A stretch of DNA of 64,000 nt from Lactiplantibacillus mudanjiangensis. GTDB taxonomy: Bacteria; Bacillota; Bacilli; Lactobacillales; Lactobacillaceae. Under the pieces are notes generated by a model that searched no databases, was not told the origin of the DNA, and worked only from the letters and a program-made list of their open reading frames with translations. Made by a program: the position numbers and the translations under genes. The stretch covers positions 372,001-436,000 of the forward strand of contig NZ_BJDY01000004.1 of the NCBI RefSeq assembly GCF_005405385.1, in the 5' to 3' direction. Below are positions 35,968 through 51,603 of this stretch, one piece after another; within the stretch, counting starts at the first letter, position 1, and each line of letters starts with the position of its first letter.

Positions 35968-36040
35968 AATCGTTGGTATTGTTTGCCCCACGATAAGCCC
36001 CGGAATCTTATTGAGTGTCAAGCAAAACAGAAAATGGAGG
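35968..36040 (+). promoter_or_regulatory. Possible L13 leader RNA
   Basis: ATCGTTGG / CCACGAT stem (about 35968-35993) and ATAAG / CTTAT stem (about 35993-36013) enclosing CCCCGG, then GAGTGTCAAGC before the rplM ribosome site. Position and size fit the L13 leader of low-GC Gram-positive bacteria, an autoregulatory element, but I could not align it to the family. Confidence 0.45.
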
Positions 36041-36048
36041 AACACAAC

Positions 36049-36492
36049 GTGCGTACAACATATATGGCTAAACCAGGTGAAATTGATCGTAAATGGTATG
36101 TAGTTGATGCTACCGATATCCCTTTGGGTCGGTTATCAACTGTCGTTGCATCAATCTTACGTGGTAAGAACAAACCAGTATTCACACCAAATGTCGATAC
36201 TGGTGACAACGTAATCGTGATTAATGCAAGTAAGGTCGCTTTAACTGGTAAGAAAGCAGAACGGAAGATTTACTATCACCATACTGCTTATGCTGGTGGT
36301 TTAAAGGAACGGACTGCCGGTGACTTCTTAGCTAAAGAACCAGAAAAATTAATTGAAACTTCAGTTAAGGGTATGCTTCCTCACAACTCTTTGGGTCACA
36401 AAATGGGCTTGAAGTTGCATGTTTATGCTGGTGCAGAACATACGCAACAAGCACAAAAACCTGAAGTTTTGGATATTACGAACTTAATCTAA
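36049..36492 (+). CDS. rplM: 50S ribosomal protein L13
   Basis: Early 23S assembly protein. GTG at 36049 is chosen: TGGAGGAAC lies upstream and the product starts [20 protein letters not shown], the family N-terminus, 147 residues. A longer in-frame ATG at 35983 would run through the leader structure. rpsI follows after 13 nt. Confidence 0.96.
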
Positions 36493-36505
36493 GGAGGAAA
36501 CAACA

Positions 36506-36898
36506 TTGGCTCAAGTACAATATCGCGGCACAGGCCGTCGTAAAGATTCAGTAGCCCGCGTACGTTTAGTACCAGGTTCTGGTAAAATTGTTATGAATGA
36601 TAAGAGTGTAGAAGACTACATTCCATTTGCAGATATTCGTAAAGAATTATTGCAACCATTCGAAGTAACGGAAACAACTGAACAATATGATGTTTTAGTT
36701 AACGTCAATGGTGGTGGGTTCCACGGCCAAGCCGGTGCTACCCGTCATGGTATCGCTCGGGCATTGCTCGAAGTTGATCCAGATTTCCGCGGTCCTTTGA
36801 AGCGCGCTGGTCTTTTGACTCGTGACGCTCGTATGAAGGAACGTAAGAAGCCAGGTCTTAAGAAAGCTCGTAAGGCTGGTCAATTCTCAAAGCGTTAA
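36506..36898 (+). CDS. rpsI: 30S ribosomal protein S9
   Basis: Head protein whose C-terminal tail touches P-site tRNA. 130 residues, [20 protein letters not shown] and the C-terminal [15 protein letters not shown] start at 36506 after AAGGAGG. Confidence 0.97.
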
Positions 36899-36940
36899 AA
36901 TTATTCGAAAAACGTTGTTATACCAACATTTTCAGAACGA

Positions 36941-36980
36941 AAAAGCACTCGTCCATTTGGGCGGGTGCTTTTATTTTTTT
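36941..36980 (+). terminator. Terminator after rpsI
   Basis: AAAAGCACTCGTCC / GGCGGGTGCTTTT with ATTTG loop, then TTATTTTTTT. A/T flanks could also serve leftward. Confidence 0.88.
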
Positions 36981-37211
36981 ATTCAAAAATCAGTTAGTCA
37001 CTCGCTTTGTTAGTTAACTATCCCCATTTGAAATCACAAGTTAGGTTCGAATAGGACAATTGAATCTTAAGGTTGCAACCGATTGTAACGTTATGTTCGT
37101 TAGTCTTCGTTAAAACCGGTCGTTTTTGCAAGCCTGACCTGCTACACTAATCGTTAAATTTAAATTAGAAAACTAATTATAAATTAATTTATTTGATGGG
37201 AAGTGGACTGA
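36981..37211 (+). other. Gap before the membrane-protein gene
   Basis: About 230 nt without a gene. AT-rich; TACACT near 37142 could be a -10, but no good -35 is spaced from it. No clear hairpin or operator. Confidence 0.4.
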
Positions 37212-38447
37212 ATGCAAGCAATTATCGCACTCGCAGTTGTGATGGGACTAATGGTCGTTGGTGAATGGGTGTCAACGCGTAGTAAAGCCTATATTCCATC
37301 GGTATTTGTGACGGGGGTCTTGTTTCTGATCGGTTTTTGGACGGTTATTCCTAAAAATATTGTGCCTGATGCATCCTTCACCAAGCCGTTTGTCGCAATT
37401 ACGCAAGCCGTTTTACTCATCCATATGGGCACGTTGATGGATCTCAAATTGTTACTTAAACAATGGCGGGCTGTTTTGATCGCGTTATCTGGTGTGGTAG
37501 GAACGGTTATCCTGGCAATGGGCGTTGGCAGCTTACTTTTTAGTTGGCAAACGGTTGTTGCCAGTGTACCACCGTTAACGGGTGGATTAGTGGCCGCATT
37601 TCTGATGACCGCTGGGCTAAAGGCCCAACATATTACGTTATTAGCGGCTTTTCCGGTGGCGATGTTTGTCATGCATAGCATGATTGGCTATCCACTAACT
37701 GCCGTAATGCTTAAACGTGACAGTCGGCGGTTATTAAGCCAGTTTCATGCCCCTAATATACCAGCAGCTGTTACAGAAAATGCGGCTAAGTCGTCAGCGC
37801 AGGCAACCAATAAAACGACTGCGGTAGTCTCGTCAAATACCCCGACCAGCAAACCACACCCTTGGCGATTGAAAGTCAATGTACCAGCGGCTTACGAGAC
37901 TTCAGCATTTATGTTATTTAAAGTAGCCATTGTCACGGTTCTAGCGGAAGGGACTGCGGCTTTAATGCACAATGTGATCAATCCGTATATCATTTGTTTA
38001 ATCTATGGTGTTATCGCGCATCAATTGGGACTTTTAGAAGATGCTGTGTTGGAAAAAGCTGGGGTATTTCATTGGTTGATGTACGGCTTATTGGCATATA
38101 TCTTTTCGAATTTGAATATTGTGAAAATGAACATGCTCGTTGGCATTGTGGTGCCGATTTTTACGTTGATTTTGCTGGGCATTTTGGGCATGTTTATTGC
38201 GTCATCGCTATTGGCTAAACCTTTAGGCTTTAGTCGTGAAATGGCATTTGCCAGTGCGTTAACGGCGTTGTTTGGTTTTCCAGCGGATTATATTGTCACC
38301 CATGAAGTGACGAACATGATGGGTAAAACTGAGGCCGAAAAACAATATTTGCTGGATCACTTATTACCAAAGATGTTGGTGGGTGGTTTTGCCACGGTAT
38401 CGGTAGCTTCGGTAATTATTGCGTCAATTTTCTTGAAACTTTTGTAG
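37212..38447 (+). CDS. Integral membrane protein, possible carboxylate or amino-acid derivative permease
   Basis: 411 residues, ten or so hydrophobic helices in two halves separated by a hydrophilic Ala/Thr/Ser-rich loop (about residues 178-220). The pattern GTLMDLKLL after helix 3 and the paired halves recall sodium/glutamate-type carriers, but no signature is clear enough to name a family. It starts an apparent two-gene unit with the M20 amidohydrolase 12 nt downstream, similar in logic to transporter-hydrolase pairs that import and split N-acyl amino acids; that role is inferred. ATG after GGGAAGTGG. Confidence 0.6.
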   Translation: MQAIIALAVVMGLMVVGEWVSTRSKAYIPSVFVTGVLFLIGFWTVIPKNIVPDASFTKPFVAITQAVLLIHMGTLMDLKLLLKQWRAVLIALSGVVGTVILAMGVGSLLFSWQTVVASVPPLTGGLVAAFLMTAGLKAQHITLLAAFPVAMFVMHSMIGYPLTAVMLKRDSRRLLSQFHAPNIPAAVTENAAKSSAQATNKTTAVVSSNTPTSKPHPWRLKVNVPAAYETSAFMLFKVAIVTVLAEGTAALMHNVINPYIICLIYGVIAHQLGLLEDAVLEKAGVFHWLMYGLLAYIFSNLNIVKMNMLVGIVVPIFTLILLGILGMFIASSLLAKPLGFSREMAFASALTALFGFPADYIVTHEVTNMMGKTEAEKQYLLDHLLPKMLVGGFATVSVASVIIASIFLKLL

Positions 38448-38459
38448 GGGGGATTAGCA

Positions 38460-39656
38460 ATGAACGACCAGGAGTTAACGACTTGGATGACGGCGATTCG
38501 TCATCGGTTACACCAACAACCAGAACTCGCTTTACACGAAATTCACACCACAGCCTTAATCAAACAAACCTTAACGCAACTAGGTATTCGTATCTTGCCC
38601 TATTCAGGAGAAACTGGGGTGGTCGCAGAAATTGGCCACGGTGAACCAACCATTGCGTTACGTGCCGATATCGATGCGTTACCCTTGCAAGAAAAATCAG
38701 GGCTAGCTTATGCTTCTAAAGTTAATGGCCGAATGCACGCGTGCGGTCATGATTTTCATACAGCGGCGCTACTCGGTGGAGCCCGATTGTTGAAGGCCCA
38801 TGAGGCTGACTTAACGGGGACCGTGCGCTTGATTTTTCAACCCGGTGAAGAGGGCCATGTTGGTGCCAAGCTGATGATTAAAAATGGTGTTTTGCAGGGA
38901 GTGCAGGCGATTGCTGGGTTTCATAACATGCCTCAAATCCCAATTGGGACCTTAGCGATTAAATCTGGTGCGCTGATGGCTAGTAACGATAACTTTATCG
39001 TGACTATTCATGGAGCTGGAGCGCACGCGGCGATGCCTGATCGGAGTCAAGATGTCATTGTCACCCTGGGACAGCTTATCACGAGCTTGCAAACGATTCG
39101 AAGCCGTAATATAGCGCCAGATGCTGCGTTAGTTTTAACGATTGCCGACGTGCAAGCGGGTCACACCTTTAACGTCATTCCAGATACTGCCGAATTTAAA
39201 GGCACGATTCGAACATTTAGTGCGACTAATCGGAAATTGGCCATGGAACGGTTTTATGATCTAGTCCAAGCGACGGTTAAAGGATTTGAACAGACCGTTA
39301 CGATTGATTGGGATCAAGGGCCGAGCTGTGTCACGAATGAGCCGATCTTGACGGCCTTGATTGCTAAAGCTGCCGCCGAGACATTAACGATTGTGCCGGC
39401 TTTGCCATGCAATGCAGACGATGACTTTGCTTTGTATCAAGAACGTATTCCCGGTTTTTATGGTTTTCTAGGGTCTGGTGGAACGGGGGTATTACATCAA
39501 TCAACGTATTCATGTGACGATGCTGGACTCATTTATGGGGCTAAGTTTCACCTGTTAGCGGCCAAAACGATGTTGCAGGCGGTGACTCAAGGCCAATTGG
39601 CAAAATTTAAACCATCAGTCGAATCCGCAGTGGTTAACAGTTTACAGTCACTTTAA
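38460..39656 (+). CDS. M20 family metallo-amidohydrolase
   Basis: Cytosolic dinuclear-metal hydrolase of the M20D group (N-acyl amino-acid, hippurate or amino-benzoyl-glutamate hydrolases). 398 residues. Metal ligands lie in MHACGHDFHTA and in QPGEEGHVGAK; the lid-domain His is in GAGAHAAMPDRS. Substrate cannot be set from sequence. ATG after AGGGGGG; coupled to the membrane protein upstream. Confidence 0.85.
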   Translation: MNDQELTTWMTAIRHRLHQQPELALHEIHTTALIKQTLTQLGIRILPYSGETGVVAEIGHGEPTIALRADIDALPLQEKSGLAYASKVNGRMHACGHDFHTAALLGGARLLKAHEADLTGTVRLIFQPGEEGHVGAKLMIKNGVLQGVQAIAGFHNMPQIPIGTLAIKSGALMASNDNFIVTIHGAGAHAAMPDRSQDVIVTLGQLITSLQTIRSRNIAPDAALVLTIADVQAGHTFNVIPDTAEFKGTIRTFSATNRKLAMERFYDLVQATVKGFEQTVTIDWDQGPSCVTNEPILTALIAKAAAETLTIVPALPCNADDDFALYQERIPGFYGFLGSGGTGVLHQSTYSCDDAGLIYGAKFHLLAAKTMLQAVTQGQLAKFKPSVESAVVNSLQSL

Positions 39657-39688
39657 GCTAGATTGATAGAATAATTTTAAAAAATGAT

Positions 39689-39718
39689 TTGACAATTCTA
39701 TCAAACGTGAGGTATAGT
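39689..39718 (+). promoter_or_regulatory. Promoter of the tkt-aro operon
   Basis: TTGACA (39689-39694), 18 bp, TATAGT (39713-39718). The inferred start near 39725 gives a leader of about 320 nt before tkt. Confidence 0.8.
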
Positions 39719-39760
39719 CTTAGACATCAACAAATATTAAATTTTAAGGAGATTATCATT

Positions 39761-39820
39761 ATGCGTGGATTAAGAAATGGTCAAAAATCAAATCGATTTT
39801 ATTATTACTGGTTTCAGTAG
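39761..39820 (+). CDS. Aromatic leader peptide (Phe-Tyr-Tyr-Tyr-Trp-Phe)
   Basis: 19-codon reading frame, MRGLRNGQKSNRFYYYWFQ, with its own ribosome site (AAGGAGA, 8-9 nt before ATG). Six consecutive aromatic codons (39797-39814) lie just before the stop. It precedes a series of alternative hairpins and a strong terminator, then tkt-aroE-aroA-aroB, the pathway that makes Phe, Tyr and Trp precursors. This is the classic form of a leader peptide whose translation senses charged tRNA. Too short for homology support, so the call rests on codon content and context. Confidence 0.85.
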   Translation: MRGLRNGQKSNRFYYYWFQ

Positions 39821-40024
39821 TAGTGTCAGCCATTCGATGCGGGCACTACGCTCGCATCGAATGTGACCAGTAATTATCTTCGTATGATGAAAAATCTACG
39901 GGAAGTCACATAGATGTTGTCATTTAACAACTGTGTGGCTTTTCAATCAACTCGGGTCGAGGCTTTTTTGCCATCGCTCAGTTGGCAACGAAACGCTCAC
40001 AGTTTAGACTGTGGGCGTTTTTTT
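39804..40024 (+). promoter_or_regulatory. Ribosome-mediated attenuator upstream of tkt
   Basis: Competing pairings in order: region 1 ATTACTGGT (39804-39812, inside the Tyr-Trp codons) with ACCAGTAAT (39866-39874); within it a perfect 11-bp hairpin CATTCGATGCG/CGCATCGAATG (39831-39863). TGTGAC (39862-39867) with GTCACA (39905-39910). GTCACA arm with TGTGTGGCT in a hairpin (39904-39940). AACTGTG (39929-39935) with CACAGTT (39998-40004), which would break the terminator 39993-40024. Stalling at the aromatic codons would shift the chain toward read-through. Confidence 0.75.
39993..40024 (+). terminator. Attenuator terminator before tkt
   Basis: ACGCTCACAGT / ACTGTGGGCGT, 11 bp with one T-G pair, TTAG loop, seven T, ending 22 nt before the tkt ATG. 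Confidence 0.9.
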
Positions 40025-40046
40025 GATAGAGAAAGGGATTGATAAC

Positions 40047-42068
40047 ATGAAATTAACCAACTTTGATGAAACCGATCAATTAGCAGTAACTAATTTACGG
40101 GTATTGAGTGCGGAAATGATTGAACAAGCCAAATCCGGTCATCCGGGATTGCCACTCGGGGCGGCACCGATGTTATGGGTGTTGTGGAGTCGTCACTTAC
40201 GGCTTGATCCCCAAACACCCAAATGGTTGAATCGCGACCGATTTGTCTTATCAGCGGGTCATGGTTCTGCCTTGTTATACAGCCTGTTACATGTCAGTGG
40301 CTTTGATGTCACGATGGATGATTTGAAACATTTCCGACAGTTCGGCAGTCGGACGCCGGGGCATCCTGAATATGGTGTGGTTGATGGCGTTGAAGCTACG
40401 ACCGGTCCTTTAGGCCAAGGGTTAGGTATGGCGGTTGGCATGGCTTTAGCCGAAACGCATTTAAGCGCGCAATTCGAAACGGAGCCAGCGTTGATTGATC
40501 ACTACACTTACAGTTTAGTTGGCGATGGTGATTTGATGGAAGGCGTCTCACATGAGGCCGCTAGCTTTGCGGGGCAACATCAACTTGGTAAATTAATTGT
40601 CTTGTATGATGACAATTCGATTTCACTAGATGGTCCCACCAGTCGATCGTTTAAAACTGATGTCACGCAACGGTTTGAAAGTTACGGTTGGGATACTCAA
40701 GTGGTGACGGATGGTAACGATCTAGCCGCTATCGATGCCGCGATTAATCGGGCCAAGCAAACGGCGCAACCTTCTTTGATTGCCGTGAAAACCGTGATTG
40801 GATTTGGCGCACCGGGTGCTGGCACTAACGCGGTACACGGCAGTCCCTTAGGCGAAGCTGGTTTAGCAGCGTTACGCCAAAACTTAAATTGGACGGCCAA
40901 GCCATTTACGGTCGTACCAGCAGTGGCTAAACGAGCCCAAACGATGATTATGGCTCGTGGGCATCAAGCCGCTGAGCAGTGGCAACAACGCGTTGATCAA
41001 TTACCATTGCCGATGCTACGGCAATTAAAACAACAATTAACGACGACGTTACCTTTAGATTTAGCGGCGCAATTACCCAGTTACGATGAAGGGGCCGAAG
41101 CATCACGGATGACCAGTCATACGATGATTCAAACGTTAGCCGCTCATTTACCAGAACTTGTCGGTGGCTCAGCGGACCTGGCGAGTTCTAATAAGACGAC
41201 GATTGAAACGGATGACTTGATGACGCCGGCTCATCCAGCTGAACGAAACTTAGCGTTTGGTGTTCGTGAATTCGGCGAAGGGGCGATCTTAAATGGCATG
41301 GCGTTACATGGTGGCTTACGTGTCTTTGGTAGTACTTTCCTCGTCTTCTCGGATTACTTGCGTGGGGCGATTCGATTGGCAGCGCTGCAGCATTTACCAG
41401 TGACCTACGTCTTCACACATGACTCAATTGCGGTCGGTGAAGATGGTCCGACCCATCAACCGATTGAACAATTGATGAGTTTGCGACTCATTCCGAATGT
41501 CACAGTTTTACGACTGAGTGATCCGAATGAAACGGTCGCGGCTTGGTGGCAAGCAGTCAATGCCACCGATCATCCAACCGTCTTAATTTTGACACGTCAA
41601 AACTTAGCGGTACTGCCAAATAGCAAACGGTTAGCGATGACTGGCGTGGCTCGTGGCGGGTACGTCTTGTCCCCACAAAAAGGGCTTGAACCAACGGGAA
41701 TCTTAATTGCCAGTGGTTCCGAAGTCGGGTTAGCGATTAAAGCGCAAGCAAAATTAGCGCGGTTAGGTCAAGACGTTAGCGTGGTGTCGATGCCATCGAT
41801 GGACTTATTCCAACAACAATCGGCTCAATACCAAGCCAGCGTCTTACCACCACAAGTTCGTCGGCGTGTGGCTGTTGAAATGGGTGCCACGTTAGGTTGG
41901 GAACGGTTCGTCGGTTTAGACGGCACGGTGGTCGGACTCGATCACTTTGGTGCCAGCGGTCCCGCCGAAGCCGTTTTACCAGCATTAGGCTTTGCTGTTG
42001 ATGCGGTAGTTCAAGCATACCAACAAACCCATGTCGAACGTGCTGGGCAACGATTAGCCGTTATTTAG
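40047..42068 (+). CDS. tkt: Transketolase
   Basis: Thiamine-diphosphate enzyme moving two-carbon units between sugar phosphates; it yields erythrose 4-phosphate, a substrate of the DAHP synthase encoded two genes on. 673 residues. [22 protein letters not shown], the ThDP motif GDGDLMEG...N and [15 protein letters not shown] are intact. ATG at 40047 is chosen because AGAAAGGG lies upstream; an in-frame ATG at 40011 lies inside the terminator. First gene of the aro operon, aroE follows after 16 nt. Confidence 0.95.
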
Positions 42069-42084
42069 AGAGGAAGACGAGTCA

Positions 42085-42951
42085 ATGATTAATGGAAAAA
42101 CAGCACTATTTGGGTTTATGGCCCATCCGGCCAAACATAGCCGGTCACCTAAAATGCATAATTTGAGTTTTGATTACTGGCATATTAATGCCCGCTACTT
42201 GGCGTTCGATGTAGCGCCAACGGATTTGACGGGCGCGGTTGCTGGGATTCGTAGTATGGGAATTTCTGGGGTTAACTTATCGATGCCTTTTAAGGAAACA
42301 GTGGTGCCAATGCTTGATGGGATGACCACACGTGCCAAACGGATCAAAGCTGTGAATACGATTAAGAATGATCATGGCAAATTGATCGGTGATAGTACTG
42401 ATGGTGCTGGATTATACCAGGATTTACAACACCAAGGTTATGATCTACATGGGAAAAACGTGGTGATTTTAGGGGCCGGTGGCGCTGGCAAAGCGATCAT
42501 TGCGGCTGCGTTGGATTATGATGTCGCTAGTGTCACGGTTTTCAAGCGGGCCAACGCGACTTATGCCCAAGTTGACCAGTGGTTAAACGACTTGGCTAGT
42601 CAAACGGACATCACGATGCAATTACGGCCATATGATGATTTAAAAGCGATGCAACAGGCTGTTCAAGCTAGTGATTTGATTATCAATGCGACTAATGTCG
42701 GGATGACCACGGCTGGACTCCCATTGCCACCACAAGTGATGGCTACCTTAACACCAAGTCAAACCGTCTACGATGTGATTTATCAACCACTAGAGACTGA
42801 GTTTTTACGCCAAGCCAAAGCACTTGGATGTGCCACCCATAATGGGTTGGGCATGTTGATTTGGCAAGGGGCTTTAGCTTTTAAATTTTGGACCGGCAAA
42901 GAGATGCCGATTGCTGCTGTAACTGAATCGATTATGTCGACCGCCAACTAA
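42085..42951 (+). CDS. aroE: Shikimate dehydrogenase
   Basis: NADPH-dependent reduction of 3-dehydroshikimate to shikimate. 288 residues. Substrate motif HSRSPKMHN near the N-terminus, catalytic Lys in NLSMPFKE, nucleotide loop GAGGAGKA. Aromatic pathway step four. A quinate/shikimate paralogue (YdiB type) cannot be excluded, but position in the aro operon favours AroE. Confidence 0.92.
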   Translation: MINGKTALFGFMAHPAKHSRSPKMHNLSFDYWHINARYLAFDVAPTDLTGAVAGIRSMGISGVNLSMPFKETVVPMLDGMTTRAKRIKAVNTIKNDHGKLIGDSTDGAGLYQDLQHQGYDLHGKNVVILGAGGAGKAIIAAALDYDVASVTVFKRANATYAQVDQWLNDLASQTDITMQLRPYDDLKAMQQAVQASDLIINATNVGMTTAGLPLPPQVMATLTPSQTVYDVIYQPLETEFLRQAKALGCATHNGLGMLIWQGALAFKFWTGKEMPIAAVTESIMSTAN

Positions 42952-42967
42952 CGAGGAGTAGATAAAA

Positions 42968-43963
42968 ATGATTATTATTTTAAAAGAAACCACTGCCAGT
43001 GCCATGCAAGCCAGACTTGTTGCCCAATTCGGGGCTAAAACCGAAATTTTCACTCATGATAACCGGATTGCCTTACAAGGTGTCAACCCTGATGAGTTGC
43101 CAGCTGATGTGTTAGCTGCTGCCGATGAAGTCATTACCGATGTTCCCGCGGCCGTACAAAGTAGCCGGTTACTACATCCGGAAGATACGATTATTAAAAC
43201 GCCGCATAGTGTCATCGGTGGGGCAGACTTAGTAATGATGGCCGGACCTTGTTCCGTTGAAAGTGCCGAACATGTGATGGCCATGGCCAAAGTTGCTAAG
43301 CAAGGTGGCGCAACGGTCGTTCGTGGTGGGGCCTTCAAACCACGGACCTCACCATACTCGTTCCAAGGGCTTGGTGAAACCGGTCTTCAATACTTACGAG
43401 CTGCCGCTGATGCCAATGGCTTAGACATGATTACCGAAGTCATGGACGATGAACACGTTGAAATGGTCGCCAAGTATACCGATATTTTCCAAATTGGTGC
43501 GCGGAACATGCAAAACTTCTCGTTGTTAAAAGCTGTTGGCCAGACGAATATTCCAGTCGCTTTAAAGCGTGGGATGTCGGCAACAATCGATGATGTGTTA
43601 AATGCGGCTGAATACATCGCTGCTGGTGGTAATCATCAAATCATGCTCCTCGAACGTGGGATTCGGACCTTCGACAATAAGTACACGCGCAACACGTTTG
43701 ACTTAGGTGCCGTGCCAGTTCTGCAACAATTAACACACTACCCAGTTATTGTGGATCCTAGTCATGCGGTTGGTGAATGGGATCTCGTGACCCCAATGGC
43801 GATGGCCGGCGTCGCTGCTAGTGCCAGCGGAATGATTGTGGAAATTCATGACGATCCAACTCATGCGCTATCAGACGGGCCGCAAGCTTTGAAACCGAAG
43901 ACTTACTTGAAGATGGCAAAGCAAGCGTTCCAATTACATGATTTGATGCAAACCTGGGATTAG
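42968..43963 (+). CDS. aroA: 3-deoxy-7-phosphoheptulonate (DAHP) synthase, type I-beta
   Basis: Condenses phosphoenolpyruvate and erythrose 4-phosphate, the first step of the shikimate pathway. 331 residues: an N-terminal ferredoxin-like regulatory domain (about 1-80) as in Thermotoga-type enzymes, where it mediates Tyr/Phe feedback, then the barrel with AGPCSVESAEH, RGGAFKPRTSPYSFQG and DPSHAVG. Called aroA in Gram-positive nomenclature (aroF/aroG elsewhere). ATG after GAGGAG. The stop touches the aroB leader codons, so translation is coupled. Confidence 0.94.
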   Translation: MIIILKETTASAMQARLVAQFGAKTEIFTHDNRIALQGVNPDELPADVLAAADEVITDVPAAVQSSRLLHPEDTIIKTPHSVIGGADLVMMAGPCSVESAEHVMAMAKVAKQGGATVVRGGAFKPRTSPYSFQGLGETGLQYLRAAADANGLDMITEVMDDEHVEMVAKYTDIFQIGARNMQNFSLLKAVGQTNIPVALKRGMSATIDDVLNAAEYIAAGGNHQIMLLERGIRTFDNKYTRNTFDLGAVPVLQQLTHYPVIVDPSHAVGEWDLVTPMAMAGVAASASGMIVEIHDDPTHALSDGPQALKPKTYLKMAKQAFQLHDLMQTWD

Positions 43964-43972
43964 GTGATGCCA

Positions 43973-45049
43973 ATGACAATTATTCCAGTCAAAACGGCGA
44001 CACAAGCTTATGACGTTCGCTTAGTCGATCACGGCTTAGATCAAATTGCTGAACATATTGCATCGGTTTGGACACCATGCCGTGTCGCATTAATTACGGA
44101 TACAACCGTTGGGCCGTTGTATGCGGCTAAAGTAGTGACACAATTAACCAATGCCGGGTATTGTGTGAACGTCCTAACGGTGCCAGCTGGTGAAGCCAGT
44201 AAGAGTTGGACCCAAGTGGAACGATTGATTACGGCCATGAGTACGATGCATTTAACTCGGAGCGATGGGGTGATCGCACTAGGCGGGGGCGTGGTTGGCG
44301 ATTTAGCCGGTTTCGTTGCGTCGATCTACTTACGCGGATTAAGTTTGATTCAAGTGCCAACCTCATTATTGGCACAAGTTGATAGTTCGGTCGGTGGTAA
44401 AACGGCGATTGATCTGCCAACCGGTAAAAACTTAGTGGGCAGTTTTTATCAACCGGCGTTGGTCTTGATTGATCCGCAAACCTTAACGACACTACCAGCG
44501 CGTAGTTTGGCCGAGGGGTATGGGGAAATTGTGAAATGTGCGGCTTTAGTTGGTGGGGCGTTTTGGGCGTTAGTGACGCAGATTAACCAGTTGGCGGATT
44601 TAATTCCGAATGCCGCGGCATTGATTACTGCCAGCGTGCAATTTAAAGCGCAAGTGGTGATGGCGGATGAAAAAGAGGGTGGCCAACGGCAGTTGTTGAA
44701 CTTTGGCCATACCATTGGTCATGCGGTGGAATTGCTTGGTCAAGGTCGTTGGATGCATGGTGAAGCAGTCGCGATTGGCTTAGTTCAGGTTAGCCGGTTG
44801 TTTGAAGCGCACCAACTTACGCCAGCAGGCACCGCTGATCAATTAGCGGCACGGCTCCAAGCAGTGGGGTTACCAACATCATTACCAGATTTGCCGGTCA
44901 CGCAATTGTTAGCGGCGATGCAACATGATAAAAAGGTTCATGGCAATCAACTGACGTGGGTCTATTTAACGGCGATCGGGAGGCCAGAATTACGAGCAGT
45001 ACCGGTCTTACAATTGAAGGATTGGTTAGCGCCAATGATAAAGGATTAA
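43973..45049 (+). CDS. aroB: 3-dehydroquinate synthase
   Basis: Converts DAHP to 3-dehydroquinate using NAD and a divalent metal. ATG at 43973 is chosen because TAGGTGATG, overlapping the upstream stop, is then correctly spaced; in-frame GTG 43964 and ATG 43967 are alternatives. 358 residues. GGGVVGDLAGFVAS (NAD loop), VGGKTAIDLPTGKNLVG and the metal ligands in NFGHTIGHAVE are present. Last gene before a strong bidirectional terminator; aroC, aroK and aroA/EPSP genes are not here. Confidence 0.94.
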   Translation: MTIIPVKTATQAYDVRLVDHGLDQIAEHIASVWTPCRVALITDTTVGPLYAAKVVTQLTNAGYCVNVLTVPAGEASKSWTQVERLITAMSTMHLTRSDGVIALGGGVVGDLAGFVASIYLRGLSLIQVPTSLLAQVDSSVGGKTAIDLPTGKNLVGSFYQPALVLIDPQTLTTLPARSLAEGYGEIVKCAALVGGAFWALVTQINQLADLIPNAAALITASVQFKAQVVMADEKEGGQRQLLNFGHTIGHAVELLGQGRWMHGEAVAIGLVQVSRLFEAHQLTPAGTADQLAARLQAVGLPTSLPDLPVTQLLAAMQHDKKVHGNQLTWVYLTAIGRPELRAVPVLQLKDWLAPMIKD

Positions 45050-45086
45050 AAAAGCGTCACGCAGGGCAAGCTGCGTGACGTTTTTT
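45050..45086. terminator. Bidirectional terminator after aroB
   Basis: CGTCACGCAG / CTGCGTGACG, perfect 10 bp with a GGCAAG loop, preceded by a run of A and followed by six T, so it serves both aroB and the convergent gene. Confidence 0.94.
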
Positions 45087-45094
45087 GCGACCAG

Positions 45095-45535
45095 TTACTG
45101 GTCAATATAATGGCTTAAAATCGTTAATAATTGGTCAAAATCTGGTGGATAAGCGCCGGTTCCACGGCGATGAATGTAATTTGTTGCATGGAGGACTTGA
45201 TGATCCAGTCGATCTTGAGTGGTCCGCCAATCATCATTGGATAAAATGATTTCCCAATAATCGTGATTAGGTTTGTCGGTATCGAGCCGATCATAAACCC
45301 CTTGCCATGGTTGAATAATCGCCATTAGGTCCGCGACCAATAGTGGAATCATGGTTTTCTCGATTTTAAAATGACGGTGCCAATATTTTGGCGAAAAAAA
45401 GTGTTTCAGGGTGGGCCAATGCCGTTGGCTGACGACAAAGCGATGCGGTCCGCACTCGCATCGAAGTTGAAAATAACCATCCCGATTGCGCAACTTAAAG
45501 TACAGAGTTGCCACTGCTGTCGGTTGAGTTGACAT
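45095..45535 (-). CDS. Protein of unknown function
   Basis: 146 residues, not recognised. Rich in Trp, His and Tyr; no signal peptide or membrane helix. It has a compact N-terminal region with CECG near residue 26 and a C-terminal half of predicted helices. ATG with AATAGGAG upstream. Monocistronic, convergent with aroB. A perfect palindrome lies 33-53 bp upstream of its start and may be its operator. Function not assigned. Confidence 0.7.
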   Translation of the reverse strand: MSTQPTAVATLYFKLRNRDGYFQLRCECGPHRFVVSQRHWPTLKHFFSPKYWHRHFKIEKTMIPLLVADLMAIIQPWQGVYDRLDTDKPNHDYWEIILSNDDWRTTQDRLDHQVLHATNYIHRRGTGAYPPDFDQLLTILSHYIDQ

Positions 45536-45566
45536 GCCTTTTTCTCCTATTAAAATATATCCCCCA

Positions 45567-45588
45567 TTTAGTACTTCCCGGTACTAAA
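45567..45588. promoter_or_regulatory. Operator-like palindrome
   Basis: TTTAGTAC-TTCCCG-GTACTAAA: perfect 8-bp half sites with a 6-bp spacer, upstream of the unknown leftward gene; a TATATT -10 candidate on the minus strand is at 45554-45559. No regulator gene is adjacent. Confidence 0.6.
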
Positions 45589-45704
45589 AAATACCCCATT
45601 GGTGCATACCGCTATTATGACTGAAACCGATAGTTAATACAAGTGTATTAATTAAAAAAAGATTGGTCACAAACTGCGGTCCGAAGCTTTTTATAACGAT
45701 TTAC

Positions 45705-46019
45705 TTAATCAGCATTACTTTCGAAAGTCATTTCACTCATTGACAGTTCCAGGTCATCTAAAACATCGTTGGTGGTTAAAAATTGTTCCCAGGCAGCAAC
45801 TGATTGATCACGAGTATGTGGTGTAATTTTTTGATGGAGATTATCAATCACGCCGTCGAGTAATTTTTCTGCCTGACGATTAATTTCAGCATCGTTATAA
45901 CGCCGTGCTGGCAAGCGTTCTTGGTTCTGTTGGTTTAAAAAATCAGTCGCCTTCGTCATAAAAATGGTGACCACTTGTGAGTTATCAGCCAAGAAGGCTT
46001 TTAAAGTTGCATTATCCAA
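45705..46019 (-). CDS. Small protein of unknown function
   Basis: 104 residues, acidic C-terminus (LDDLELSMSEMTFESNAD), mostly helical, no membrane segment. TTG start at 46019 is chosen because AGGAGG lies 8 nt upstream; the product begins MDNATLKAFLADNS. A TGTTATAGT extended -10 is at about 46049 on the minus strand. Not recognised; its own promoter suggests a monocistronic gene. Confidence 0.7.
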   Translation of the reverse strand: MDNATLKAFLADNSQVVTIFMTKATDFLNQQNQERLPARRYNDAEINRQAEKLLDGVIDNLHQKITPHTRDQSVAAWEQFLTTNDVLDDLELSMSEMTFESNAD

Positions 46020-46176
46020 GTCAATTTCCTCCTAAATGATTCTTTTCTACTATAACATAGGTAGGGACGAGTACTGATGATTAAAGATCGTGGGTTATCG
46101 GCAATGTGAATAAATAAACAACTTAATAAAATAAAATTTTTTAGTTGATTATCAGGAACAAGTCAATAGTAGCTGA

Positions 46177-46190
46177 TGTGAACGCTGTCA
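46177..46190. promoter_or_regulatory. Candidate catabolite-responsive element (cre)
   Basis: TGTGAACGCTGTCA fits the CcpA consensus TGWNANCGNTNWCA at every fixed position. It lies about 40 bp upstream of the fum promoter -35, and also upstream of the divergent unknown gene. Confidence 0.55.
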
Positions 46191-46229
46191 AGATAACCTC
46201 ATAAGCAAAACTTATTGGTAAATAGAGAT

Positions 46230-46259
46230 TTGACTATACTATTTTGTGAAGTTTAGAAT
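46230..46259 (+). promoter_or_regulatory. fum promoter candidate
   Basis: TTGACT (46230-46235), 18 bp, TAGAAT (46254-46259). It gives about 60 nt of leader before fum. Confidence 0.6.
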
Positions 46260-46325
46260 TTGGTTGTTGATTAGTTGTTACCCATTTCACATTAAGTTAA
46301 ATTTTAAAATACGGAGGGTTTCATC

Positions 46326-47711
46326 ATGGAAAATTATCGAGTAGAATCAGACACTTTAGGCGACGTTCAAATTCCAGCTACCGCTTTATGGGGGGCACAA
46401 ACCGAACGGAGTCGCAATAACTTCCCAACCGGCGCAAAAATGCCACTGGAATTAATCAAAGCGTTACTACAAATTAAGAAGGCTGCCGCAATTGCGAACA
46501 AAGAATTAGATGCAATTGCTCCAGAAAAGGCCGATTTAATTGTGACTGCGATTGATCAATTGTTGAGTTTGGATGATGAAGACCTTCGCAAAGACTTTCC
46601 ATTAGTGATCTATCAAACTGGTTCTGGAACCCAAACGAATATGAACGTTAATGAAGTTGTCGCACATATGGCAGCTAAAATAAACCCAGACCTTGAAATC
46701 TTACCTAATGATGATGTGAATCACGGGCAAAGTTCCAATGATATCTTCCCAACGGCGATGAATATCACAGCCGCAGTAGCGGTGGACAATTTGGAAGCTG
46801 CTGCAGCGCATTTATTAGTCGAATTAAAAGAAAAACAAGCCAAATATTGGCGCGTGGTTAAAATCGGCCGGACCCATTTACAAGATGCCACGCCGATGAC
46901 CTTTGGCCAAGAAGTGAGTGGCTGGGCTAGCATGATTGAACATGACTTAAACTTCTTAAAACAATTAAACCCAACGTTAAGCGAACTCGCCATGGGTGGG
47001 ACCGCCGTTGGGACTGGCTTGAATGCTGCTCCACATTTTGCCGACATTATTGCCGAAAAGATGAGTGACCTATATGGGGTTAAATTCACCGCGGATTCTA
47101 ACAAGTTCTATGGTTTAGCAGCGCACTCAGGTTTAAATGTCGTTCACGGTGCCATTAAGACATTGGCAAGTGATTTAATGAAAATTGCTAACGATGTCCG
47201 GTTCTTAGCTAGTGGTCCTCGGGCCGGATATGGTGAATTAAACATTCCAGCTAACGAACCAGGCTCATCAATTATGCCTGGGAAAGTTAATCCAACACAG
47301 GCTGAAGCAGTTACCATGGCGGCTGTTCGGGTGATGGGTAACGATGTTGTTGTTGGCATGGCTTCAAGTCAAGGTAATTTTGAAATGAACGTTTACAAGC
47401 CAGTTTTAATTAGTGCTTTCCTTGAATCCGCTGAACTATTGGCCGGGACGATGACCGGGTTTGCGGATAAGATGATTCATGGTTTATCCGTAAATGCTGA
47501 TCGGATGGCTGAACTCGTTGATCGTTCCTTGATGACGGTCACGGCGTTGTCACCACATATTGGTTACCATGAAAGTGCCACGATTGCACAACAAGCCGAA
47601 AAAGATGGCACGACCTTAAAAGTAGCGGCCATTAAATCTGGCTTAGTGACTGAGGAACAATTCGATGAATGGATGGTTCCAATTGATATGACAAACATTG
47701 ATGAAAAATAA
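46326..47711 (+). CDS. fumC: Fumarate hydratase, class II
   Basis: Interconverts malate and fumarate without an iron-sulfur cluster. 461 residues. The superfamily signature GSSIMPGKVNPTQAEA and the active-site segments SGSGTQTNMNVNEV-like (TGSGTQTNMNVNE) and HGQSSNDIFPTAMN are intact. With the fumarate reductase downstream it forms the reductive branch malate to fumarate to succinate. ATG after ACGGAGGG. Confidence 0.95.
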   Translation: MENYRVESDTLGDVQIPATALWGAQTERSRNNFPTGAKMPLELIKALLQIKKAAAIANKELDAIAPEKADLIVTAIDQLLSLDDEDLRKDFPLVIYQTGSGTQTNMNVNEVVAHMAAKINPDLEILPNDDVNHGQSSNDIFPTAMNITAAVAVDNLEAAAAHLLVELKEKQAKYWRVVKIGRTHLQDATPMTFGQEVSGWASMIEHDLNFLKQLNPTLSELAMGGTAVGTGLNAAPHFADIIAEKMSDLYGVKFTADSNKFYGLAAHSGLNVVHGAIKTLASDLMKIANDVRFLASGPRAGYGELNIPANEPGSSIMPGKVNPTQAEAVTMAAVRVMGNDVVVGMASSQGNFEMNVYKPVLISAFLESAELLAGTMTGFADKMIHGLSVNADRMAELVDRSLMTVTALSPHIGYHESATIAQQAEKDGTTLKVAAIKSGLVTEEQFDEWMVPIDMTNIDEK

Positions 47712-47721
47712 GTAACCTTAG

Positions 47722-47755
47722 ACCTTCCGGCATTTTTATGGCGGAAGGTTGTTTG
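47722..47755 (+). terminator. Weak terminator-like hairpin between fum and frd
   Basis: ACCTTCCG / CGGAAGGT, 8 bp with a 12-nt loop, then TTGTTT. Likely only partial, since the genes act in one pathway. Confidence 0.55.
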
Positions 47756-47776
47756 AAAAGTGGAGGGAATCAAAAA

Positions 47777-49165
47777 ATGGCTGAAAAATTTGTCGCAACT
47801 GGCTTAGCAACCTTACAAGATAACTATGACTTGATCGTCATCGGTTCTGGTGGTGCCGGCTTAACGGCTGCCATCCAAGCGCATGAATTGGGCTTGAAAC
47901 CGGTAATCTTAGAAAAAATGTCAAAAATTGGTGGGAACACCACGCGGGCCTCATCTGGGATGAATGCGGCTGAAACCGATGTTCAATTAAATCACCATAT
48001 TGTGGATAGTTTTGAAGAATTCTATGCCGATACCTTTAAGGGTGGCGGCCAACAAAATAATCAAGAATTATTGAAATATTTCACGGAACACAGTGCACTG
48101 GCAATTGATTGGTTGGCTGATCATCAGATTGTCTTAGATGAATTGACGATTACAGGCGGGATGAGTACCATGCGGACCCATCGGCCAAGCTCAATGGCCC
48201 CAATTGGTGGTTTCTTAGTGAGTGAATTACTCAAACAAGTGGCAACCGAAAATATTCCATTGTATACCGATGTTAAAGTTAATGAATTGGTGTTGAATGA
48301 TGCGCATCAAATTAATGGTGTTAAAGTGACAACCGCTAATGGTGATCGTGAGCTCACGGCTAAAGCAGTTGTCTTAGCAACCGGTGGCTTTGGCGCTAAC
48401 CAAGCCTTATTAACCAAGTATCGTGCTGATTTAAAAGGGTATAACACCACTAACCAACCTGGCGCAACGGGTGATGGGATTGAACTAGCCCAAGCCATTG
48501 GTGCAAAGTTAGTGGACATGGACCAAGTTCAAGTTCACCCAACGGTGCAACAGGATACTGATCACGCCTACTTGATTGGCGAAGCCGTTCGTGGCGAAGG
48601 TGCTATTCTCGTTAATCAAAGCGGTGCCCGTTTTGTGAATGAATTAGATACACGCAAAAATGTGACGGCGGCCATTGATGAGTTAGGCGGCACTGGTGCT
48701 TGGTTGATCTTTGATCGCGAGATTCGTGATCGGGTTAAGGCCGTTGAATTTTATGATTCAATTGGACTTGTTAAAACTGCGGATACCGTTGCCGATTTGG
48801 CGACAACGACGAAACTTGATGCGGCAACTTTAACCAGTACAGTTGCGAACTGGAATCAAGCGGTTGCTGATCAAAATGATGCTGAATTTGGGCGGTCAAC
48901 GGGGATGGATCGTGATATTCAACATGGCCCATTCTATTCGATTCATATTGCACCCGCTGTTCATTACACCATGGGCGGGGTCGCGATTAATCACCTAACC
49001 CAAGTTTTAACAGCTCAAGATCAAGTGATTAATGGCTTGTTCGCAGCAGGCGAAGTTGTCGGCGGGTTGCATGGTAATAACCGAATTGGTGGGAATTCCA
49101 TTGCAGAAACGGTGATCTTTGGTCGTCAAGCCGGTCAACAAGTCTTTAAGTATTTGCAACAATAA
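47777..49165 (+). CDS. frdA: Fumarate reductase flavoprotein subunit (single-domain, soluble)
   Basis: FAD enzyme of the fumarate reductase / flavocytochrome c superfamily, reducing fumarate to succinate. ATG at 47777 is chosen because TGGAGGG lies upstream; an in-frame ATG at 47738 lies within the preceding hairpin. 462 residues: FAD motif GSGGAGLTAAIQA, active-site segments THRPSSMAPIGG, RGEGAILVN and GGNSIAETVIFGR. No signal peptide, heme motif or FMN-binding domain, so it is cytosolic and the electron donor is not encoded here. A related urocanate or other flavin reductase is possible; fum context favours fumarate. Confidence 0.88.
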   Translation: MAEKFVATGLATLQDNYDLIVIGSGGAGLTAAIQAHELGLKPVILEKMSKIGGNTTRASSGMNAAETDVQLNHHIVDSFEEFYADTFKGGGQQNNQELLKYFTEHSALAIDWLADHQIVLDELTITGGMSTMRTHRPSSMAPIGGFLVSELLKQVATENIPLYTDVKVNELVLNDAHQINGVKVTTANGDRELTAKAVVLATGGFGANQALLTKYRADLKGYNTTNQPGATGDGIELAQAIGAKLVDMDQVQVHPTVQQDTDHAYLIGEAVRGEGAILVNQSGARFVNELDTRKNVTAAIDELGGTGAWLIFDREIRDRVKAVEFYDSIGLVKTADTVADLATTTKLDAATLTSTVANWNQAVADQNDAEFGRSTGMDRDIQHGPFYSIHIAPAVHYTMGGVAINHLTQVLTAQDQVINGLFAAGEVVGGLHGNNRIGGNSIAETVIFGRQAGQQVFKYLQQ

Positions 49166-49191
49166 TCACGTCAAAAAAGGAAGCGGAATTT

Positions 49192-50610
49192 GTGTCTCTT
49201 GAAAAAGTAAACTATAAAAAATTTATTGCCCCACTAGTAGTGGGCATCTTACTGTGGGTCTTATCGCCAGTACGACCGGTTGGCCTTTCGATTGGCGCCT
49301 GGCATATGTTTGCCATTTTTGTGGCAACAATTATTGGTTGTATTACGCAGCCGCTCCCCATTGGTGGGGTGGCGATTCTAGGTTTTACCATCGCAGTGCT
49401 CACGCATGAAATCCCGATTGATACAGCTATTGCTGGTTTTGGGAATAGTAGTATCTGGTTAATCGTGATGGCCTTCTTTATTTCCCGTGGATTCATTAAA
49501 ACGGGACTTGGCCGGCGAATCGCGTTGGAATTTGTGGGATTATTTGGTAAACGAACTTTAGGCTTAGCGTACTCATTAATTGGGGTAGATTTGATTTTAG
49601 CACCGGCGACGCCTAGTAATACGGCGCGGGCTGGTGGGATCATGTATCCTATTATTAATTCTTTGTCAGAAGCGTTTGGCTCATCACCAAAACAAGGAAC
49701 GCAACGTAAAATTGGCTCATTCTTGATGTTTGCCGAATTCCATGGGGATATGATTACGGCGGCGATGTTCTTGACGGCGATGGCTGGTAATCCACTAGCT
49801 CAATCGTTAGCGAAGAGTATGGGTGTGCACATTACGTGGATGAATTGGTTTATCGCTGGGGTTGTTCCCGGGATTATTTCATTGATTTTGGTGCCATTTA
49901 TTATTTATAAAATGTTCCCACCAGAAATCAAGGAAACGCCCAATGCCAAGCAATGGTCTGAAAGTCAGTTAAAAGAAATGGGTGCCTTGTCTTTACCTGA
50001 AAAATTCATGGCTGGCATCTTTGTCATTGCATTATTACTTTGGGTCACGGGGAGTTTAACGGGAATCGATGCCACATTAACGGCTTTCATTGCGTTATCG
50101 TTATTGCTTCTTTGTGGCGTACTTTCTTGGTCAGATGTGACTCACGAAACAGGTGCTTGGAATACGTTAACTTGGTTCTCAGTCCTCGTTATGATGGCAA
50201 CGCAACTCAATACGCAAGGGTTTATTCCTTGGTTGAGTAAGCAAATTGCCGGCGCGATGAGTGGGTTGAACTGGATTATCGTCTTAATCGTGTTGATTTT
50301 AGCCTACTTCTATAGCCATTATTTATTTGCCAGTGCAACGGCTCATGTGAGTGCGATGTATAGTGCGTTACTAGGGGTGGCCATCTCGGCACATGTACCA
50401 GCAATGTTAGCGGCCTTAATGCTTGGCTTCTTTAGTAACTTGTTCAGTTCAACGACTCACTACAGTAATGGGCCAGCCCCAATTTTGTTTGGTTCTGGTT
50501 ATGTCAGTCAAAATGACTGGTGGCGGATGAATGCGATTTTAGCCTTTGTCTACTTTATTGTGTGGATTGGGATTGGCTCGCTTTGGATGAAACTCATCGG
50601 AATGTGGTAA
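49192..50610 (+). CDS. Dicarboxylate/anion transporter, DASS (CitT-like) family
   Basis: 472 residues with about 12 membrane helices. Family features: the long helix hairpin with LAPATPSNTARAGG (SNT motif) and the second repeat containing LFSSTTHYSNGPAP. Likely exchanges or imports malate, fumarate, succinate, citrate or 2-oxoglutarate; specificity not decided from sequence. GTG start at 49192 after AAAAAAGGAAGCGG, 26 bp after frdA, so part of the same unit. Confidence 0.88.
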   Translation: MSLEKVNYKKFIAPLVVGILLWVLSPVRPVGLSIGAWHMFAIFVATIIGCITQPLPIGGVAILGFTIAVLTHEIPIDTAIAGFGNSSIWLIVMAFFISRGFIKTGLGRRIALEFVGLFGKRTLGLAYSLIGVDLILAPATPSNTARAGGIMYPIINSLSEAFGSSPKQGTQRKIGSFLMFAEFHGDMITAAMFLTAMAGNPLAQSLAKSMGVHITWMNWFIAGVVPGIISLILVPFIIYKMFPPEIKETPNAKQWSESQLKEMGALSLPEKFMAGIFVIALLLWVTGSLTGIDATLTAFIALSLLLLCGVLSWSDVTHETGAWNTLTWFSVLVMMATQLNTQGFIPWLSKQIAGAMSGLNWIIVLIVLILAYFYSHYLFASATAHVSAMYSALLGVAISAHVPAMLAALMLGFFSNLFSSTTHYSNGPAPILFGSGYVSQNDWWRMNAILAFVYFIVWIGIGSLWMKLIGMW

Positions 50611-50643
50611 AATACCGGTAACATGAAGAAATGAGTGATCGGC

Positions 50644-51534
50644 ATGAATACACGTGATTTGGCCTATTTTCGGGCGTTGGTTGAAAAGAAAAACTATACC
50701 GTCGTGGCACAGCAGTTTAGTGTCTCACAACCGGCAGTAACGCAAGCCATTCATCGGTTGGAAAAAGAATTTGATGTGAAGTTGGTTTTACAAGATCGCA
50801 GTCATCAACGAACCGAGATTACTCGGGCCGGACAACTGTTGTATAAAAATGCACAAGCCATTCAAGCTAATATTTCATTGGCGCATCGTGAAATTGACAG
50901 TGCTAAGCAACCAGCCATTCGATTTGGCTTGCCACCAATTATTGGGACGATGTATTTCCCCAATATTGCCGGTGAGTTATTGAATCAAGGGTTCTTGAAA
51001 CAATTGGCGATTACTGAAACTGGCTCCGGCGAGCTATTGACGAAGCTTCAGGCGGGGGACATTGATATTGCACTCCTGGGCTCATATGCGCCGTTAGACT
51101 TACCAACAATTCAGGCATTTCCATTAGGCGAGCGGCCTTTTAGCGTGATTGTGAGCCCCAAGCATCGGTTAGCCCAACAACCAACTGTTGCTTTTAAAGA
51201 CTTGACACATGAAAAATTCATCGGTTTAACCGGTAAATTTGTCCATCCAGGCGCATTCAATGCCTATTGTCGTTTTGCTGGTGTCCAACCGGAGATTATC
51301 TATAATACGCCAGATATTGCCTGGGCTAAAGGGTTAGTCAAAGCCAACTTGGGGATTAGCCTATTAGTACGCGATATTGTTAATTCTGACGATGGGGTGG
51401 TTTGTTTAAGCATTAGTGATCCGGTGCCAACGAGCTTTCATGTCTCGGTAGCGATTAGAACCGGTTATGTGGTCACTGAACGTGAACAACAATTTATTGA
51501 TGAATTACTAACCATGCCGATTCAACCAAATTAA
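50644..51534 (+). CDS. LysR-family transcriptional regulator
   Basis: 296 residues: N-terminal winged helix-turn-helix (MNTRDLAYFRALVEKKNYT, then VSQPAVTQAIHRLEKEF) and a two-lobed effector-binding domain. ATG at 50644 is chosen by similarity of its start to the neighbouring LysR protein (MNTKDLAYF); an in-frame GTG at 50635 is the alternative. 33 nt after the transporter, so probably the last gene of the fum-frd-transporter unit and likely its regulator. It resembles mleR, suggesting duplication. Confidence 0.88.
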   Translation: MNTRDLAYFRALVEKKNYTVVAQQFSVSQPAVTQAIHRLEKEFDVKLVLQDRSHQRTEITRAGQLLYKNAQAIQANISLAHREIDSAKQPAIRFGLPPIIGTMYFPNIAGELLNQGFLKQLAITETGSGELLTKLQAGDIDIALLGSYAPLDLPTIQAFPLGERPFSVIVSPKHRLAQQPTVAFKDLTHEKFIGLTGKFVHPGAFNAYCRFAGVQPEIIYNTPDIAWAKGLVKANLGISLLVRDIVNSDDGVVCLSISDPVPTSFHVSVAIRTGYVVTEREQQFIDELLTMPIQPN

Positions 51535-51538
51535 ATGC

Positions 51539-51587
51539 AAAAGGATCTACGATGACGTTAAAAATGTCATCGTAGATCCTTTTTTTG
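51539..51587. terminator. Bidirectional terminator between the convergent LysR genes
   Basis: AAAAGGATCTACGATGAC / GTCATCGTAGATCCTTTT, perfect stem of about 18 bp, TTTTTTT on the right and AAAA on the left. Confidence 0.95.
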
Positions 51588-51603
51588 GTGAACGAAATTA
51601 CCA

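Follow-up and report, generated by a model that had tools for sequence, protein, structure and literature searches.

The tkt-aroE-DAHPS-aroB operon of Lactiplantibacillus mudanjiangensis is preceded by a leader that, judged from its sequence and from folding models, is very likely a ribosome-mediated transcription attenuator sensing charged tRNA-Phe, tRNA-Tyr and tRNA-Trp. The leader lies in the window, the stretch of 64,000 nucleotides analysed here; it is real, and the observation is larger than was first reported in the initial annotation, made from the same DNA. The parts of the device, their conservation, the alternative pairings and their covariation and, for most relatives tested, the freeing of segment 2 once a ribosome stalls come directly from our computations. 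In the proposed mechanism, charging of all three tRNAs would let the ribosome complete the 19-codon peptide and depart; with the ribosome gone, segment 1 would pair with 2, 3 with 4, and 5 with 6 to form the terminator, keeping the operon off. If any one of the three tRNAs is scarce, the ribosome would wait in the FYYYWF run and mask segment 1, upon which segment 2 would capture 3, freeing 4 to capture 5; no terminator would form and the operon would be transcribed. The predicted logic sets 1:2/3:4/5:6, meaning stop, against 2:3/4:5, meaning read on.

All parts of the element lie on the forward (+) strand. The promoter (39689-39718), TTGACA and TATAGT separated by 18 nt, matches the consensus at 11 of 12 positions. 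The ribosome binding site AAGGAG (39746-39751) has an ATG 9 nt downstream, which opens the leader peptide gene MRGLRNGQKSNRFYYYWFQ (39761-39820), 19 codons ending in FYYYWFQ; promoter, ribosome site and aromatic frame are thus present as the initial annotation had claimed. The sensing codons Phe-Tyr-Tyr-Tyr-Trp-Phe occupy 39797-39814, as seen in the sequence and in the aligned leaders, and segment 1 (39801-39812) lies within the Tyr/Trp codons. Segment 1 is complementary to 39866-39877 over 12 nt (92%); the pairing noted earlier, 39804-39812 with 39866-39874, exists and is really longer than described. Segments 1 and 2 are separated by a strong hairpin (39831-39863; 14-nt arms, 93% complementary, with two-sided changes in relatives) that the initial annotation did not describe; the stretch 39829-39866 that holds it has a fold energy of -24.1 kcal/mol. 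Segment 2 (39861-39877) can take either segment 1 or segment 3 as its partner, and the TGTGAC/GTCACA match proposed for 2:3 was found as 39861-39867 with 39905-39911 (7 nt, 100%). Segment 3 (39904-39916), placed on pairing evidence, and segment 4 (39926-39940) form the expected 3:4 pairing at about 39904-39940, with TTTT directly after the hairpin. Segment 5 (39990-40004), the 5' arm of the terminator, has segment 4 or segment 6 as its partner, the latter (40008-40024) comprising the 3' arm and U run; the terminator-stem 4:5 pairing of the first description was recovered as 39929-39942 with 39991-40004 (14 nt, 79%), and 39989-40024 folds at -20.1 kcal/mol. The window's leader RNA as a whole has a fold energy of -122.5 kcal/mol (z -12.75), a value reached by none of 200 shuffles.

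Behind the leader, on the same strand, lie genes for transketolase (tkt, 40047-42068; NCBIfam TIGR00232, 835.9 bits), shikimate dehydrogenase (aroE, 42085-42951; TIGR00507), DAHP synthase (42968-43963; TIGR01361) and 3-dehydroquinate synthase (aroB, 43964-45049; TIGR01357), all above the family cut-offs. Conservation upstream of tkt-aro, which the initial annotation had proposed as a check, is extensive: in 80 named related loci, collected via DAHP synthase, a scan for a short frame with a ribosome site and at least four aromatics in seven residues found a leader at 73. One of these loci, L059, has two, giving 74 leaders, or 75 with that of the window. The scan by construction takes only open frames, and it found none at seven loci (L031, L063, L033, L069, L077, L078 and L079). 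Little upstream DNA was available to scan at L031 and L063, L033 is the second DAHP synthase copy of Secundilactobacillus collinoides, and L079 is probably a scan miss, a covariance model having later found a leader (L122) on a contig of equal length.

The first recognised gene after the 74 leaders is tkt (28), DAHP synthase (24), aroE (17) or, in Companilactobacillus, aroC (5), which indicates that the leader stays with the cluster head while the head gene changes; its start lies 178-278 nt (median 221) from the leader stop. The 75 leaders comprise 14-24 codons, lengths being approximate for L072, which begins at a non-start codon with its true frame starting further upstream, and for the L059a leader, which begins at TTG; their last aromatic residue stands 0-3 codons before the stop. 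The 80 loci hold 3805 further short frames preceded by a ribosome site; at least four aromatics in seven occur in 57 of these and at least five in only 3, compared with 75 and 46 of the 75 leaders, of which only the comparison at five or more is fair because the leaders were themselves chosen by the 4-in-7 rule. A hairpin before a T run was found downstream of all 75 leaders, one of them weak (L068) and two located upstream of segment 2; with the search confined to the region past segment 4, a terminator was found in 74 of 75, L068 included. A run of codons for the pathway's products in a short frame and an intrinsic terminator before the first gene, both characteristic of attenuators, are therefore in place, the frame and ribosome site being seen and their translation predicted. 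In Agrilactobacillus yilanensis (L059), the two leaders, at 2404-2454 and 3572-3622, lie in one cluster (aroE, tkt), and the aroE copy seems to be a four-segment version with only the 3:4 terminator.

The attenuator logic of the initial annotation draws support from partner swaps, from covariation of the codons with segment 2 and from folding with a stalled ribosome, and less of it in the window itself. Pair counts were made on alignment A1, whose 64 rows (63 distinct) omit 11 of the 75 leaders as too divergent, as does the 2:3 stall test. In the 1:2 helix, 95.2% of cells are standard pairs and 7 of 10 positions show two-sided changes, while sliding the partner by 1-3 columns leaves 15-59% pairs. 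Column pair 30:121 is CG in 41 rows and UA in 19, and column pair 33:118 is UA in 48, CG in 14 and UG in one; columns 30 and 33 each fall on the third position of a Tyr codon. Where TAT TAC TGG in the leader becomes TAC TAT TGG, segment 2 shifts from CCAGTAA to CCAATAG, which, on the aligned sequences, is a compensated synonymous change within the sensing codons. Both partners have also changed in divergent genera, codon run CCTGGTATGC standing with segment 2 GCATACCAGG in Lacticaseibacillus and codon run CTACTTTATC with segment 2 GATAAAGTAG in Companilactobacillus. The helices are mutually exclusive and the first of them contains the sensing codons, the hallmark of attenuators of the trp and his type.

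Alignment-free duplex energies point the same way. Over 75 loci the 1:2 duplex averages -17.3 kcal/mol with its own partner, -12.9 with a between-genus swap and -11.2 when shuffled; the own partner beats the mean swap in 65 and at least equals every swap in 17. The 4:5 duplex, for which L059a was omitted (as also from the segment 5 stall test) with its second terminator not found, averages -14.4, -10.6 and -7.9 kcal/mol, respectively, over 74 loci; here the own partner beats the mean swap in 57 and at least equals every swap in 16, and in 17 it is no better than the mean swap, the window included (-11.0 versus -12.0). For 2:3, 80.7% of pairs are standard, with two-sided changes at 5 of 8 positions (64 leaders), with a weaker shuffle control, in which 17 of 500 shuffles attain the count of two-sided pairs and 0 of 500 the covariation score. 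For 3:4 the corresponding values are 88.7% and 8 of 10 positions (64 leaders). Removal of 15 near-duplicates from the 64 rows gave alignment A2 (49 rows), and alignment A3 was fitted to its own model, so that its pair counts are biased towards structure.

Switching was followed in 64 loci, on transcripts that stop beyond segment 3. Free RNA is expected to hold 0.08 pairs of 2:3 and RNA with a ribosome at codon 4 1.06, and the figure reaches 4.10, 4.68 and 1.63 with the ribosome stalled at the first, middle and last aromatic codon, respectively; a middle-codon stall gains more than one 2:3 pair in 50 of the 64 loci and loses in none. The window gives 0.0 pairs free, 1.5 with a first-codon stall and 0.1 with a middle-codon stall, and forcing 2:3 in it costs 17.8-19.5 kcal/mol in free RNA versus 0-3.2 kcal/mol under stall. 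Its 3:4 hairpin (-16.8) is more stable than 2:3 (-12.1), so the capture of segment 3 by segment 2 would have to be kinetic; in other attenuators the choice between folds is likewise kinetic. Taken alone, the window stretch 39797-39879 has its codons in a local hairpin over the stop codon rather than with segment 2. Under stall, the equilibrium uptake of segment 5 by upstream RNA rises in 34 of 74 loci, falls in 5 and stays within 0.1 in 35, and in the window it is practically flat (0.06 to 0.03). Equilibrium folding was rejected as proof of the last antiterminator step, being mixed overall and negative for the window, and this step, the capture of segment 5, is the main gap in the case for the mechanism. 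We infer that uncharged tRNA stalls the ribosome, that segments 2 and 4 capture 3 and 5, respectively, in a kinetic manner, and that read-through rises. A T run belonging to the 3:4 hairpin itself, seen in many relatives, suggests, at the level of sequence, two terminators in series.

Covariance models of the leader region (R1), of a broader definition (R2) and from the stop codon onward (R3) trace the element through the order Lactobacillales. R1 matched 121 of 397 Lactobacillaceae genomes in 23 of 40 genera (E 0.01), 9 of 295 genomes of the order (E 0.001) and 4 of 398 of the class, one of these lying outside the order with two copies; the weak-scoring R1 loci are leaders ahead of other genes. 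R2 reached 166 of 295 order genomes and 53 of 74 genera (E 0.01), and in a sample of 299 phylum genomes it matched only 3, the host among them and all within the order. R3 matched 192 of the 295 order genomes (E 0.001). At 114 loci hand-picked from the match lists (L124 excluded), the next gene encodes a TrpX-like binding protein (59), AroE (25), an aminotransferase (13), Tkt (6), an MFS transporter (4), DAHP synthase (3), AroC (1) or a PTS membrane protein (1), the remaining two loci being re-coded Ile leaders. Trp codons are absent from the leaders of all 59 TrpX-like and all 25 aroE targets, so a readout of all three amino acids is not a general trait. Nineteen R3 loci that were read have aroE (10) or TrpX-like genes (9) downstream, L281 and L282 having been read already. 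An unexpected target, at L147, is a gene for a PTS EIIC-like membrane protein, which has a Phe/Tyr leader ahead of it.

The codon run is not confined to aromatic residues. The two Ile leaders of the 114-locus set precede genes later named ilvE and ilvA, and two Ile loci are among the 47 of the R3 training set. A further set comes from 12 genomes, each selected for having at least three R3 matches, and holds 48 of their 49 matches, so that its mix is not a frequency; several of its loci had already been read, and automatic leader calling gave none at L330 and an incorrect frame at L298. Ile or Leu/Ile/Val runs (NIISIIIR, NLLISVIR) occur at 11 of these 48 loci (L292, L293, L294, L300, L301, L303, L306, L307, L311, L312 and L317), including both Ile loci of the 114 set. 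By best tblastn score, the targets of the eleven are ilvE (2), ilvA (3), a branched-chain binding protein (4) and ilvB (2), with Ile runs ahead of ilvA, ilvE and the binding protein and Leu/Ile/Val runs ahead of ilvB. Genes for TrpX-type binding proteins form two groups, the L331 protein being nearest to 12 of them and the L128 protein to 18: Trp codons (e.g., IWQSWHR) are present in 11 of 12 leaders of the former, the twelfth not being called, and in 0 of 18 of the latter. With the TrpX NCBIfam cut-off at 390 bits, L331 (444.5) and L326 (463.5) pass and L128 (321.9) fails. As far as their sequences tell, the two groups fit transporters of Trp and of Phe/Tyr, respectively, each with codons for its own substrate in the leader. 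Trp leaders with WQSW-like runs, ahead of genes nearest the TrpX equivalog, were found at L321, L323-L333 and L335, and in the host genome too. NCBIfam matches were above cut-off for ilvE, ilvA (two), ilvB and an aminotransferase, and below it for the branched-chain binding protein of L300 and the prephenate dehydratase of L322; L334 has no family.

The codon run prefers its own downstream segment over the mean of other classes in 27 of 30 loci (-17.1 versus -11.9 kcal/mol), the three exceptions (L323, L332 and L333) all being of the Trp class. We consider it rather likely that these leaders form a modular attenuator family of the Lactobacillales, in which a shared RNA chassis (stop codon, hairpin, segments 2-6) carries an exchangeable codon run (Phe/Tyr/Trp, Phe/Tyr, Trp, Ile or Leu/Ile/Val) and a segment 2 that covaries with it. 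If so, one chassis would serve many amino acid genes, as the T-box does, while reading several codons at once, and three amino acids could be monitored by one switch, beyond the reach of a T-box with its single specifier.

Amino acid genes in these bacteria are usually governed by T-boxes, and the host genome uses both these and the leaders. It has four leaders, that of the window included. FYFWYF stands ahead of an aminotransferase gene, and YYFGFYYF ahead of a gene for an MFS transporter fused to chorismate mutase (L181 1737-3128; host C1, after position 5387; Pfam MFS_1 + CM_2, frame open to the locus end); chorismate mutase is an enzyme of the Phe/Tyr branch, and the leader of the fused transporter is without a Trp codon. 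SSWQSR, found by pattern, precedes a binding-protein gene whose product shares 87% identity with the L331 protein. T-box searches of this genome gave 37 matches, 11 above the Rfam cut-off and none at the element; of the genes behind 30 of the 37, four were scanned. A T-box match above cut-off precedes tyrS and pheS, and one below cut-off precedes trpS and a trpE-like gene whose TrpE match is itself below cut-off. With T-box matches at these four genes and a leader at the aro operon, the two systems share the work: single-amino-acid genes use T-boxes or single-type leaders and the shared pathway uses one three-amino-acid leader, a correlation, not proof. The initial annotation had called the leader unusual since lactic bacteria prefer T-boxes; T-boxes are indeed used here, but the element is one member of an order-wide family.

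Other explanations of the element were weighed against attenuation by a stalled ribosome. TnaC exemplifies systems in which the nascent peptide itself arrests translation, and here nascent NRFYYYWF, with a free aromatic amino acid as ligand, could halt the ribosome and the same RNA chain could read the halt. The position of the last aromatic residue close to the stop in 75 of 75 leaders would suit such a sensor, as would the common Asn-Arg ahead of the run (49 N and 46 R in 64 aligned leaders). However, residues are swapped (Tyr for Phe or Ser, entire runs for Ile or Trp) with the RNA pairing kept in most loci tested, and the 1:2 duplex extends into the Asn-Arg codons (AATC/GATT) in many loci, so the RNA can explain the Asn-Arg conservation; we hold an arrest peptide to be unlikely. 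Direct sensing of tRNA or a metabolite, by a T-box or riboswitch, is scarcely credible: conserved structure is strong and T-boxes are plentiful in the host genome, but at gathering score Rfam gave no match in the window from 36000 to 52000, T-box (RF00230) included, the codons lie within the conserved structure, and codon identity tracks the target gene. The trpB motif, found before amino acid ABC transporters and named a riboswitch candidate in a 2024 survey (PMC11109978, available in part), speaks for this kind of reading. Sub-threshold Rfam matches on the window element were two eukaryotic snoRNAs, taken as chance.

The name of the Rfam family RF02863, Enterococcus sRNA 2410, raises the possibility of a stand-alone small RNA acting in trans, in which the frame would be incidental. 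The family matches 10 relatives of the element among 56 loci scanned (L198, L185, L194, L116, L205, L192, L188, L204, L142 and L322), and the available part of PMC5593968 describes a 195-nt E. faecium RNA with two transcripts. The Rfam match begins inside the leader frame in L142, L198 and L205, the three checked, and if RF02863 follows the mapped RNA, its 5' end misfits a whole leader transcript. Yet for a family described as an sRNA, the elements that it matches stand immediately upstream of aroE, DAHP synthase, prephenate dehydratase or TrpX-like genes and extend to the terminator region, and a terminated leader would resemble an sRNA; an independent trans-acting role thus seems very unlikely. 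RF02863 had no match at gathering threshold on the window element and none on the three host-genome copies among the 56 scanned loci, and in an Rfam scan of 18 loci from the re-coding stage only L322 matched at the element. The family is probably the terminated leader, and the two E. faecium transcripts described in PMC5593968 would fit two stop points.

Attenuation by a ribosome stalled at aromatic codons, the reading we favour, places the element beside known systems. The enterobacterial his operon attenuator has segments A-F, in which A:B, C:D and E:F oppose B:C and D:E. The window element resembles it in having a leader peptide, three hairpins and the same six-segment logic, but belongs to another phylum, carries Phe/Tyr/Trp codons and has a large hairpin between segments 1 and 2; in many Lactobacillales relatives the 3:4 hairpin moreover bears its own U run, and the likeness is one of layout. 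In the E. coli trp and pheA leaders, the peptide is rich in the operon's product and a stalled ribosome brings about read-through; these read one amino acid each with four segments, whereas the window peptide reads three for a shared pathway. Within the Firmicutes, the S. aureus ilv-leu operon has a leucine-rich leader-peptide attenuator backed by mutant and reporter data; by its description, it shares leader-peptide attenuation with our element and differs in being a single operon (PMC5794164, partial text). The trpB motif SRC-39-1 is likewise a Firmicute 5' leader with a terminator before amino acid ABC transporters; by description, it differs in having two hairpins, in occurring in Fusobacteria too and in being called a riboswitch candidate, and the accessible text shows that its authors did not exclude an attenuator (PMC11109978). 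The motif uORFC-13-1 at Acholeplasma aroF resembles the element as a small frame with at least one Phe codon ahead of a DAHP synthase terminator, and differs in its 24 examples, its other lineage and one more stem beside the terminator (PMC8632094, partial text).

The available part of PMC2965389 states that leader peptide systems were then unknown outside Proteobacteria and Actinobacteria, ermC aside, and gives a leader peptide system for hisS in bacilli. A trpX T-box is recorded in S. suis and S. pneumoniae and none in S. pyogenes (PMC9382623, partial text). No T-box for the L. plantarum aro operon is named in the accessible part of PMC2494555, and a term search of PMC7724050 gave no match. 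A published account of this leader family was not found in searches of open PMC papers; the class of mechanism is old, and what is apparently new is the family with its six-segment chassis, order-wide spread and re-coding. Pieces of it are on record, RF02863 under the heading of an sRNA and perhaps the trpB motif of PMC11109978.

A codon-swappable leader family beside T-boxes points to a division of labour within one genome. The family offers an explanation for the orphan sRNA family RF02863 and perhaps explains trpX genes without a T-box, and the re-codings found in nature (Ile, Trp, Phe/Tyr) amount to experiments on attenuator evolution that are already in place. The leader of L124 (3704-3796) has lost its central hairpin and the segment 2 core, and the script found no gene right behind it; it is possibly a decayed, uninducible copy. 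In many of L208-L286, a GTTTGTA motif is repeated just past the leader stop, and the middle arm (TGCAAAC/TACAAAC) has two possible partners, the copy after the stop and a second one ahead of segment 2, and may form a pause hairpin that is rearranged by the ribosome.
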